This document shows positions 5,393 to 8,897 of a DNA stretch of 8,897 nt, one piece after another. The first letter of the stretch is position 1. Each line of letters begins with the position of its first letter. A program made the translations under genes and the position numbers. The notes under the pieces are model-generated. The model was given only the letters and a program-made list of their open reading frames with translations. It did not search any database and was not told where the DNA came from. The stretch is from positions 1-8,897 of the forward strand of contig JALGVQ010000126.1 of assembly GCA_025774615.1 (NCBI GenBank), written 5' to 3'. The stretch comes from a bacterium. GTDB taxonomy: Bacteria; Blakebacterota; Blakebacteria; Blakebacterales; Blakebacteraceae.

Positions 5393-6027
5393 ACGATTTC
5401 TCCTTTGCGCAGCAGATAAAGCCCCATGGTGCCACCTGAGACGACCTTCATGTTCTCAAGCATCATTCCGTGTTCCTCGATGAGGGGGAGCATGCCCTGC
5501 CGGGCGAGGAAGATCCGGGAGTTCCTGAAGTGATCGCGTCCGCCCGTGAATTCCGCGACGGTAATGAGCGCGTTCCACACGCGCCCTTTCAAGCCTCTGA
5601 GCGGTCCCGGGTGGAAGTCGACGATCATCATGCGACCCTCCGGTTTCATGACCCGTTTCATCTGATTCAGTATTGCTGATCGTTCTTCTGGTGGGTGTTC
5701 GTGCAGAAAAAGTGAGGTGATGACGACGTCGAAGGAATGGTCTTCGAATGGTATTTCCCGGGCATCCTCAAGCCGAAGATCGGCCTCACTGCCAAGGCGT
5801 TTCCTCGCGATCGCGAGCATCGCTGGAGAGAGATCGATCCCCGAGATCCGGCAGCCGGAGCGAGCGTACAGTTCCAGATGCATTCCGGTCCCACAACCGA
5901 CATCAAGAACAGTGGCTCCCTCGCAGGGCGGCAGCATCGATATTGCGATCTCTCTCAGACGCCGTACGAATCGTCCGATCAACGGGTCGTAGAGACGGGC
6001 GCTCCAATCGTAGTGGTTCTCTGTCAT
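5389..6027 (-). CDS. Class I SAM-dependent methyltransferase
   Basis: A 212-aa cytosolic protein with a Rossmann-type methyltransferase domain. Motif I is V-L-D-V-G-C-G-T-G at residues 40-48. The acidic residue that binds the SAM ribose is D65 in S-G-I-D-L-S. An acidic D88 lies in L-E-D-A-R, and F-D-V-V-I-T-S at 99-105 is the motif before strand 4. L-H-E-H follows at 108-111, and K-P-E-G-R at 128-132 begins the next motif. The N-terminal Y-D-x-L-I-G-R-F segment recalls UbiE/phospholipid N-methyltransferase relatives, but the methyl acceptor cannot be read from sequence. The ATG at 6027 overlaps the upstream stop as ATGA; GAGG lies ten bases upstream, so translation may depend partly on coupling. 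Its place between a signalling pair and an exported protein does not reveal a substrate. Confidence 0.94.
   Translation of the reverse strand: MTENHYDWSARLYDPLIGRFVRRLREIAISMLPPCEGATVLDVGCGTGMHLELYARSGCRISGIDLSPAMLAIARKRLGSEADLRLEDAREIPFEDHSFDVVITSLFLHEHPPEERSAILNQMKRVMKPEGRMMIVDFHPGPLRGLKGRVWNALITVAEFTGGRDHFRNSRIFLARQGMLPLIEEHGMMLENMKVVSGGTMGLYLLRKGEIV
5400..5406 (-). promoter_or_regulatory. Ribosome binding site deciding the GTG start of the propeller gene
   Basis: AAAGGAG on the minus strand lies inside the last codons of the methyltransferase gene, seven bases before GTG at 5392. This near-perfect Shine-Dalgarno sequence supports the GTG start and gives a complete signal peptide. Confidence 0.8.
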
Positions 6028-7469
6028 CCTGACAGGTCCTCAATCCGGTAATCGCGTATCCAGCGATCGATCACCGTGGTGATGGCTTCCCGCAGATTCT
6101 CGCCGATCCCATGGATCGGACGCACCTCTTCTGCAAGCAGAGTATACCCCTGCCAGTCGAGCCAGGAGGAGATGACATCGCTGTCCGCCAGTTTCTGGAT
6201 AACTTCTTGAGGTACAGATTGCAGGGTCTCAACAAGATCATGGAGGGTATACACGTATTCTGACCCGATGATGAGGGGGGTGCGGTCCAGTCGTTCGATC
6301 TCCTTCGCGATATGCTCCTTCAGAAAGGAGATCAGTTGAAGTCCCTGACTCCGATCAGGTCGGATGATATCACCCAACTCCCGGTAGCTATGCATGTACA
6401 GCCAGGTGGAGAACGCGTCACGCTGCCCGTAGACCTCAAGGATATCAAGGATCTTCAGACCCTCCGGACTCTCTTCCTCGGCCAGACAGAGCACATCATG
6501 CAGTTCATGTATGCTCGTGATACGGTAGAGAACGTTGTTGCCATCATCGATGATCAGGAAATCGCCGATTCCGGAGTAATCATGGATATGGTCTTTCAAC
6601 TCTGTCAGACTTCCTGGATCCCCTTTCGGCAGAATGTAGAAGTCATCCCTGAAGGCCTCCGCATCATCAGCTTTCGAAGCGATCACGATCGGTATCCGGG
6701 GGTAGCGTTGAGTGATGAGCCGGATCAGATCGCGGCAACTGTCGCTATCGAGTTCATTTTTTCTCGGGAACACCAGATCGGTGATCAGGAATACCACATC
6801 GTCACCCTGACCGGCGATGGTCGAATCGGGATGTTCGATCGTGGCCTCATCATCGGTTCCGAAGAGAAATGTCAGGGCCTCCTCGAACGTCCTGGCGATC
6901 ATCACCGCCGCCCTCTGTCCGATTATGTTGTAAAGCACGGGGAGAAACTGGGATACCCAGCGTGGTTCATCATCGACTACCAGAAATACGAACCGCTTCA
7001 TATGACCTGATCGGCGGATATTGATCAGGTCCTCGACCGCTCTGACCGCCGCCGGGACGATCAGATGAGGGGCGCAGGTGTCGGAATCGTATGCGAATAC
7101 CAGATCGGCACTCGCCGAAAAGGGGAACCTTTCGCGGGAAGGTCGAGGAGCAGAACTCTGAAGAAACGTGTTGGCAGTCAGCAGGACGATCACACAACCG
7201 GGATTGTTGCCCCGAATGGCATCGGTGTCGACGACAGGAAGGGCAGTATCATCAAGAATGAATGCCAGTGGCAGGTCGGTCTCATACTCGTTCACCGCAC
7301 GAGGCTCACGCAAGACCTCGACATTCAGCCAGGGCATAACCTCCATGAGGAGTTCGGCACTCTCACGAATCCGCTTCTCAGCACTGAATATGACCACCTG
7401 CCCCACTTTGATGGGATGAATCGACCTGGGCCTGAAGCGGTGTTCGCTGTTTGCGGGGGTATCAGTCAT
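6024..7469 (-). CDS. Tandem receiver-domain protein with duplicated C-terminal module, partner of the PEP/pyruvate-binding protein
   Basis: 481 aa from the ATG at 7469; an in-frame TTG at 7481 would add four residues. Residues about 22-150 resemble a degenerate receiver domain: D73/D74 sit at the acceptor position but the first acidic pair is missing. Residues about 160-300 form a second receiver with D166/D167, candidate phosphoacceptor D231 in L-I-T-D-L, S265 and K282 in L-P-K-G, so the key residues are all present. Residues 301-480 hold two related modules, each with an S-x-W-L and an R-P motif. The segment containing G-D-F near 302 and S-T-W-L near 354 matches what I remember between the receivers and the PEP-binding domain of a long fused family. 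No DNA-binding or output enzyme domain is visible. The gene overlaps its upstream neighbour by 8 bases (ATGACTGA). Partnership with that protein is inferred from the fused relatives. Confidence 0.88.
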   Translation of the reverse strand: MTDTPANSEHRFRPRSIHPIKVGQVVIFSAEKRIRESAELLMEVMPWLNVEVLREPRAVNEYETDLPLAFILDDTALPVVDTDAIRGNNPGCVIVLLTANTFLQSSAPRPSRERFPFSASADLVFAYDSDTCAPHLIVPAAVRAVEDLINIRRSGHMKRFVFLVVDDEPRWVSQFLPVLYNIIGQRAAVMIARTFEEALTFLFGTDDEATIEHPDSTIAGQGDDVVFLITDLVFPRKNELDSDSCRDLIRLITQRYPRIPIVIASKADDAEAFRDDFYILPKGDPGSLTELKDHIHDYSGIGDFLIIDDGNNVLYRITSIHELHDVLCLAEEESPEGLKILDILEVYGQRDAFSTWLYMHSYRELGDIIRPDRSQGLQLISFLKEHIAKEIERLDRTPLIIGSEYVYTLHDLVETLQSVPQEVIQKLADSDVISSWLDWQGYTLLAEEVRPIHGIGENLREAITTVIDRWIRDYRIEDLSG

Positions 7470-8897
7470 GATCAGCAACAACCCGGCACTGCTGGTTGAG
7501 AGAATCTCCGTAAATCGCTACCGGTGTGGGGAAGGTCAACACGGCGATAGCTTTCTCGGGATCGGGTGCCGAGAAGAACCAGGGATCGAGCGTGTCCTCG
7601 GTCGGGGCAATGAATCCATAGATAACATTATTGGCGATCAGGTTTGTCAGAAAGTGGGTCCCCTGAGTGCCATGCATCCGGGTCTGAAGTCGTTTTTTAT
7701 CCTCATCATACCCACCCTGGATCATGTACAGAAAGTGGCTGCCATATATCCCTCCTGTACCGCTGTCCTCCTCAGGAAGTGGTTCGGAACGCCCAGCTAT
7801 ATCCACTCCATACTCGAAGATGGCTGAGGCGTGATTGAGTTCCCGGTAGTCGATGTTGATCCCCCAGTCACGATTGCTGCTGCCCAGCCTGCCTGGAACG
7901 ATGAGAATATAGTGCTCACCCTGTTCACGAATCGAGTTATTGATTTCCGCGATACTCTCACGCACCTCATCGTGCATCTCCTTCTCATAAAGGAAGGGTG
8001 AGATGACGACAGCCCGATTGATACCTCTGATGATGCCGTGTCCCTGCACATTGTCGATTGCCAGCCAGGTATGGCAGTGCGGTTCAGGCATCTGAATCGA
8101 CTCCCTGTGCAGTTCAGGTAGAGGTGTCAGTTGAACGATGTGGAAAACACCATTCTCCTCCCGACCTGCAAAATCGATGTTGAATACGAACTCGATCTGG
8201 AAGTGGGGTGTGATCTCGGATGAAATGGCGTCCATGATCTCACTGAGGCCCGTCCTGAAACTGAATTGGTCGTGCTGGATGAGTTCTCCGATGGTGATGA
8301 AACCTTCTTCTGTACCGAGTACCTGGAGACGACTGGTATCAGCGAAACTGGTGCGCAATTTGGACATGGTGTCGAGTTCTCCATCTCCAAGGTCGCTGTT
8401 CCTCGTCATATCAAGGGCATAGAAGTATCGCTGACCTTTGCCGATCTGCAGCAGTTTGAGGGGAAGTGGATTCCTGATAGTCGCCATCGATATCACGGGG
8501 AAATCATCCAGAATACCGAACGCAATCCGGGCGAATCCTTCGAGCGGATCCTGCTCCTTCAGGGCGTGGGTGAAGTACGATTCCGCTACCCCTGAGATGC
8601 AGGGGTAGTAGCAGGGCCCGGCGTCGGTTTGATCGTACACCCCGTGTATGGGATTCAGGATAATCGCCATTTTCTCAGAGCTCGACAGGAGCTGTTTACC
8701 GATGAAGTCGTGATAGATGCCCGAGATGGCCAGATGGACCATCCTCAGCCGGATTGCCGGGTCGGGATTGTTATTCGGCAGCATGTAGGACTGATATTCC
8801 CCGGCATGGACCAGGTCTTCCTTGTCAGTGGATAATCCCGATTCGTTGGTAGCCGAGGATCGGACACCGATCGGCCCACCTCCGAGCTCTTTCAGGA
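7462..8897 (-). CDS. PEP/pyruvate-binding (PPDK N-terminal-like) domain protein, N-terminus outside window
   Basis: The frame stays open from the stop at 7462 to the edge at 8897, giving 477 visible residues. The Met codon at 8784 is internal, because conserved sequence continues upstream: V-R-S-S-A-T at about 8865-8848 and A-G-E-Y-Q-S-Y just before 8784. V-R-S-S-A-T is the nucleotide-binding signature of PEP synthase and pyruvate phosphate dikinase N-terminal domains. Numbered from that Met, E-K-M-A-I-I-L at 37-43, S-G-V-A at 64-67 and G-F-A-R-I-A-F-G at 83-90 follow the family pattern. The usual Q-x-R-P reads Q-L-T-P at 218-221. Residues about 245-440 match the C-terminal part of the long receiver-fused family, including P-G-R-x-G-S at 297-302. 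No phosphohistidine swivelling domain or PEP-utilising barrel follows, so it is not a complete PEP synthase. The activity is unknown; ATP binding is plausible. Confidence 0.88.
   Translation of the reverse strand, partial: LKELGGGPIGVRSSATNESGLSTDKEDLVHAGEYQSYMLPNNNPDPAIRLRMVHLAISGIYHDFIGKQLLSSSEKMAIILNPIHGVYDQTDAGPCYYPCISGVAESYFTHALKEQDPLEGFARIAFGILDDFPVISMATIRNPLPLKLLQIGKGQRYFYALDMTRNSDLGDGELDTMSKLRTSFADTSRLQVLGTEEGFITIGELIQHDQFSFRTGLSEIMDAISSEITPHFQIEFVFNIDFAGREENGVFHIVQLTPLPELHRESIQMPEPHCHTWLAIDNVQGHGIIRGINRAVVISPFLYEKEMHDEVRESIAEINNSIREQGEHYILIVPGRLGSSNRDWGINIDYRELNHASAIFEYGVDIAGRSEPLPEEDSGTGGIYGSHFLYMIQGGYDEDKKRLQTRMHGTQGTHFLTNLIANNVIYGFIAPTEDTLDPWFFSAPDPEKAIAVLTFPTPVAIYGDSLNQQCRVVADHD

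Follow-up and report, generated by a model that had tools for sequence, protein, structure and literature searches.

An overlapping gene pair that carries the PPDK-like and receiver halves of a bacterial fusion protein on separate chains

The closest described relatives of the two proteins considered here are PEP synthases and rifampin phosphotransferases, which share the nucleotide-binding domain PF01326 (PPDK_N), and PleD-type tandem receivers, in which two REC folds lie next to each other in a chain with a GGDEF output domain. Modules of both kinds also occur together in fused proteins of 982-1128 amino acids (aa), spread over many bacterial lineages, in the order REC-REC-DUF5752-PPDK_N-C-terminal domain. 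No curated family was found for these fused proteins, whose best NCBIfam hits are partial PEP synthase matches far below cut-off, and literature searches returned no description of their function. Here we analyze a stretch of 8,897 nucleotides (nt), called the window below, that makes up contig JALGVQ010000126.1 of the Blakebacterota assembly GCA_025774615.1 (contig C181 of genome G000, which spans 3.3 Mb in 324 contigs and is 82% complete; four genomes of this phylum are in our set). Two overlapping genes on its minus strand encode a PPDK-like half first and a receiver half second, the reverse of the fused order. An earlier note on this DNA had described this arrangement, and its open reading frames (ORFs), strand and overlap are confirmed:

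7462-8895, minus strand: PPDK_N-like (ATP-grasp) half, a 477-aa ORF (8895 to 7462) whose 5' end is cut by the contig end
6024-7469, minus strand: receiver half, 481 aa from the ATG at 7469, or 485 aa from the TTG at 7481
7462-7469, minus strand: stop/start overlap of both genes, 8 nt, ATGACTGA

This pair is the split form of a family already seen as a fused chain, and it recurs in several candidate lineages. Fused relatives align end to end with both window halves, each half to its counterpart, which bears out the statement of the earlier note that the fused family carries two receivers, a linker with G-D-F and S-x-W-L motifs and PPDK_N in one chain; the 481-aa protein matches the N-terminal half of that chain. 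With the 485-aa ORF as a single-sequence query, fused relatives are recovered at E values down to 2.6e-15, and profiles that we built match nearly all of them at E < 1e-100. The fused proteins contain the same modules as both window proteins, the same REC2 residues and the same invariant C-terminal residues. They differ from the pair in being one chain with the receiver first, in having a single DUF5752 module, and in keeping Asp/Glu and Arg/Lys at the equivalents of PPDK positions 321 and 337, respectively.

A second contig of this genome (G000:C229:5856-6575) holds the absent start of the PPDK-like gene; the last 512 nt of that contig and the end of the window overlap and are 94% identical. 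On C229 the gene begins ~36 nt past a guaA-type gene, and the reconstructed composite protein, of ~552 aa, was used in one Pfam search. A receiver domain was looked for in this N-terminal part and is absent. Together, 552 and 481 aa give a sum comparable to one fused chain (~1000 aa).

A genome scan found split receivers in six Candidatus Aminicenantes metagenome-assembled genomes (MAGs; one receiver is a fragment), in the Latescibacterota MAG G002, in G001 ('bacterium Meg22_46_Bin_213') and in one Planctomycetota MAG. Wherever a split locus shows both genes, they share a strand and the PPDK-like gene precedes the receiver gene. They overlap by 8 nt in five loci (the window, G001 and the Aminicenantes loci L097, L099 and L102), and several relatives keep this overlap in the form ATGGCTGA or ATGRCTAG; it is slightly longer in L015 and L095, and in L098 the genes are ~14 nt apart. 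Among 199 genomes from the phylum of the Aminicenantes MAG G389, four have a split receiver, the same four have an adjacent split PPDK-like gene, and 12 others have the fused form; none carries both forms, an exclusivity that comes from small numbers and incomplete MAGs. In a set of 386 genomes from across the domain, receivers lacking an in-frame PPDK half are confined to the window's phylum, to G120 and to G293, the last with a contig-end fragment.

The domains of the receiver half are as follows:

7011-7403, minus strand: REC1, a pseudo-receiver (fold match Z 11.9 plus alignment) with no acidic pair and no conserved Lys
6573-6995, minus strand: REC2, a receiver with D170/D171, D235, S269 and K286 (fold match plus alignment)
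6777-6779, minus strand: codon of D235, the predicted phospho-acceptor Asp of REC2
6288-6572, minus strand: DUF5752-like module 1 (GDF...FSTWL; hhalign to the fused linker, probability 97.4)
6045-6287, minus strand: DUF5752-like module 2, a tandem copy not in fused relatives (hhalign to module 1, probability 95.5)

In the predicted model of the receiver protein (mean confidence score, pLDDT, 73.9), REC2 (residues 164-306) superimposes on a REC structure with Z 14.2 and a root-mean-square deviation (rmsd) of 2.4 over 122 residues, and REC1 (residues 25-162) does so with Z 11.9 and an rmsd of 3.2 over 122 residues. As judged from this model, both receiver-like domains of the 481-aa protein are real by fold. 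REC2 holds the full residue set for phosphotransfer (acidic pair, phospho-Asp, Ser/Thr and Lys), of which D171, D235, S269 and K286 are invariant across split and fused rows. The best Foldseek matches are the PleD-type tandem receivers; where these have GGDEF, the split receiver has DUF5752-like modules. Fold searches covered the REC residues well, the DUF5752-like modules not, and it is the profile comparisons that identify the G-D-F/S-x-W-L linker as DUF5752-like and find a second such match in every complete split receiver.

Pfam did not match the split receiver to Response_reg (PF00072, cut-off 30.2 bits), which some fused members pass, or to DUF5752 (PF19027, cut-off 23 bits), which recognizes the linker in four fused proteins (three above cut-off) and which the fused linker passes in 3 of 5 cases. 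Because the split proteins fall below all gathering cut-offs, Pfam alone would miss most of the pair's identity. Of the profile searches suggested in the earlier note, that with Pfam PPDK_N stayed below cut-off, that with Response_reg gave no hit, and those against the fused family matched both halves.

Three sites in the PPDK-like half bear on its possible activity:

8848-8865, minus strand: VRSSAT, corresponding to the R92 motif of PPDK
8182-8202, minus strand: FQIEFVF, with the E323 equivalent kept and the D321 equivalent changed to Gln
7654-7656, minus strand: codon of the invariant His (G-T/S-H-F motif), a candidate phospho-His

Residue numbers follow what we take to be the numbering of Clostridium symbiosum PPDK (K22, R92, D321, E323, Q335 and R337), with positions placed by motif and not by structure. 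As in PEP synthases and rifampin phosphotransferases, the K22, R92, E323 and Q335 equivalents are present, and they are invariant in 66-70 aligned sequences from four architectures: split, fused, standalone and GAF-containing. The D321 and R337 equivalents have become Gln and Thr in all eight split sequences, whereas in the other three groups (fused, standalone and GAF) the former remains Asp/Glu and the latter Arg (Lys in four fused proteins). With this pattern, the putative nucleotide-binding half looks more like a sensor than an enzyme, in agreement with the nucleotide-binding sensor suggested in the earlier note, and we slightly favor nucleotide sensing over full catalysis for the split clade. 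Unlike PEP synthases and rifampin phosphotransferases, the PPDK-like half has neither a PEP/pyruvate barrel nor a recognized swivelling domain (PF00391), since Pfam matched neither in the split proteins. Its C-terminal domain holds the only His that is invariant in 70 of 70 relatives of all four architectures, in the motif G-S/T-H-F, accompanied by invariant R411, E436 and N394 (the His is H489 in the G001 protein).

Glutamate dehydrogenase (GDH) genes are a recurrent neighbor of the family. Within the few kilobases fetched around each locus, GDH is found at 18 of 27 fused loci, at 8 of 12 loci with a standalone PPDK half, and at the loci of five split genomes (four Aminicenantes and one Planctomycetota, the latter in the order GDH-PPDK-Rec), where several of the eleven rows scored as split are contig pieces that belong to a single genome. 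Because the genomes searched hold 0-5 GDH genes each, we estimate chance adjacency at ~1% per locus. In Aminicenantes, the block runs from GDH through a standalone PPDK half, a ~1065-aa GAF-like/PPDK/NTP-transferase protein (its N-terminal part labelled GAF-like by appearance, as Pfam gave no name) and a metallophosphoesterase to the split pair, with an OmpR-type regulator before the pair in two of these genomes. In G353 and G083, fused genes hold the same slot next to the metallophosphoesterase. A link between the family and GDH or nitrogen metabolism in these relatives is therefore somewhat probable, and the neighborhood offers a specific clue to the family's target.

Two further arrangements were seen around GDH. 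A recurrent series of GDH, standalone PPDK half, PPDK/NTP_transf_2 protein (~1065 aa) and calcineurin-like phosphoesterase occurs in many lineages (L105, L106, L107 and L057-L068), and in two blocks (L063:9659-17288 and L066:9514-17149) the GDH gene is flanked by two fused REC-PPDK genes.

The earlier note had attributed the pair to fission of a fused gene with inversion of its order, and this claim is not upheld. In trees of both halves, the split members form one deep, separate clade with long branches (2.84 and 2.62 changes per column). When this clade was grafted on 113 branches, the best placements lay just outside the fused clade, while nested positions reached P values of up to 0.38 in the approximately unbiased test and many were not rejected at 0.05. 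Fission is unproven because the best attachment lies outside the fused clade and nested positions are also unrejected. To judge from these trees, ancestral separate genes that later fused would fit at least as well as fission plus inversion. Two other arrangements also keep the halves apart. Standalone PPDK-half proteins (~580 aa) resemble the split PPDK protein in being encoded by a separate gene beside GDH and in having the same C-terminal domain, but they are nested in the fused clade and have no adjoining receiver half. In G120:C262 (L073:179-5246), a 575-aa PPDK protein and a 436-aa receiver protein have separate genes, as in the pair, but these diverge around a membrane-protein-like gene and fall outside the split clade.

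The recurrence of this pair across lineages with its gene order unchanged, often beside GDH genes, makes it look like a genuine switch in two parts and not like a broken gene. Specifically, we propose, with a probability of about 0.5, that the pair encodes a two-subunit, nucleotide-binding, receiver-controlled switch that acts in trans and has a partly degenerate ATP site. The upstream gene would encode a PPDK/PEP-synthase-like ATP-grasp subunit that binds an adenine nucleotide and has lost part of the metal/catalytic set, and the downstream, translationally coupled gene would supply a receiver subunit composed of a pseudo-REC, a true REC and two DUF5752-like docking modules. These subunits would assemble in trans in the cytoplasm, and phosphorylation of D235 in REC2 would alter the hold of the receiver subunit on the ATP-grasp subunit, such that a signal and the adenine-nucleotide level would be read jointly. 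The output in relatives would most likely fall on GDH and the balance of nitrogen and carbon, with the GDH neighbor having been lost in the window's lineage. That the halves form a complex in trans, as the earlier note had supposed, is quite likely in light of the conserved coupling of the pair, the lack of both forms together in any genome searched and the slot that it shares with the fused gene. Since the receiver and ATP-grasp halves are separable in the split pair, each could be purified and tested alone.

Besides the small numbers behind the exclusivity of the two forms, several observations weigh against this proposal. First, G001 has an extra, orphan receiver gene with no PPDK partner (G001:C128; L014:4944-6380), in a context syntenic with the window (guaA-Rec-methyltransferase-BNR), while its coupled pair resides on another contig; because of this orphan, the receiver may act alone. 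Second, neither the 552-aa composite (19.9 bits) nor the G001 protein (15.6 bits) reaches the PPDK_N cut-off of 27 bits, and the structure predicted for this half is of poor quality (mean pLDDT 47.7). Third, none of the neighbors in the GDH block stands beside the pair in the window's lineage, and the sole GDH found in the window's genome is ~969 aa long and encoded elsewhere. Finally, we infer rather than observe complex formation and nucleotide binding, as we do phosphorylation and the target.

An alternative that we consider unlikely, though it fares best among the others, is that the PPDK half is an enzyme that acts on a small molecule or protein by phosphorylation or ligation, as do PEP synthase, rifampin phosphotransferase and the prodigiosin ligases, and that the receiver half turns it on or off. 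Such enzymes provide the closest named profiles and fold matches, although the latter are weak in the model available (rifampin phosphotransferases on top, E ~2e-3), and the fused and standalone members do keep the D/E321 and Arg/Lys337 equivalents. An enzyme of this type is harder to reconcile with a chain that has no barrel or recognized swivelling domain, and with the loss of two catalytic positions in every split member.

Somewhat less likely still is an ATP-grasp phosphorelay, in which the C-terminal domain would be a diverged swivelling phospho-His domain and phosphate would pass from ATP to the invariant His and on to the REC2 residue D235, within one chain in the fused proteins and between chains in the pair. 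The invariance of this His, with its three companion residues, and the presence of all four phosphotransfer residues in REC2 agree with such a route. Likewise, when profiles of the fused and standalone groups are anchored on PPDK_N and aligned with PEP synthases, G-S/T-H-F falls opposite the catalytic T-S-H. However, this extension of the alignment is of low confidence and is absent for the split and GAF groups, the C-terminal domain, when compared alone, locally and without an anchor, matches PF00391-type domains no better than controls do, and the split clade has lost its D321 and R337 equivalents. The broader version, in which a relay of this kind without a histidine kinase would control GDH-linked nitrogen metabolism in cis or in trans, strikes us as improbable on the motifs available.

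It is also doubtful, to a degree between these last two, that the genes are merely ancestral neighbors that stayed together, with receiver and PPDK proteins that do different jobs and form no complex. The orphan receiver in G001 would suit this explanation, as would the best tree, in which the split clade and the separate halves of G120 lie outside the fused clade. Conservation of both the stop/start overlap and the gene order argues against it, as do the fusion of the same halves elsewhere and the fact that the two forms do not meet in any genome searched. That misassembly or a frameshift error made a fused gene look like two can be dismissed almost entirely, for although these are MAG data with a contig break inside the PPDK half, the order is opposite to that of the fused gene and identical in independent MAGs of several lineages.

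No relatives were found in viral contigs, and profiles for anti-phage defence gave no match.

Two minor observations concern the upstream end of the pair. Directly upstream in L022 (4765-5820) is a guaA-like gene, named from its sequence, with a product of ~350 aa that appears to resemble the synthetase part of GuaA only, without the glutaminase domain. Finally, comparison of window positions 8503-8535 with the end of L022 reveals a 15-nt in-frame deletion in the window copy that removes the residues HGYAT, which is either a strain variant or an assembly error; these residues are present in C229 and in all complete split relatives, where they are part of an otherwise conserved G-x-G loop.

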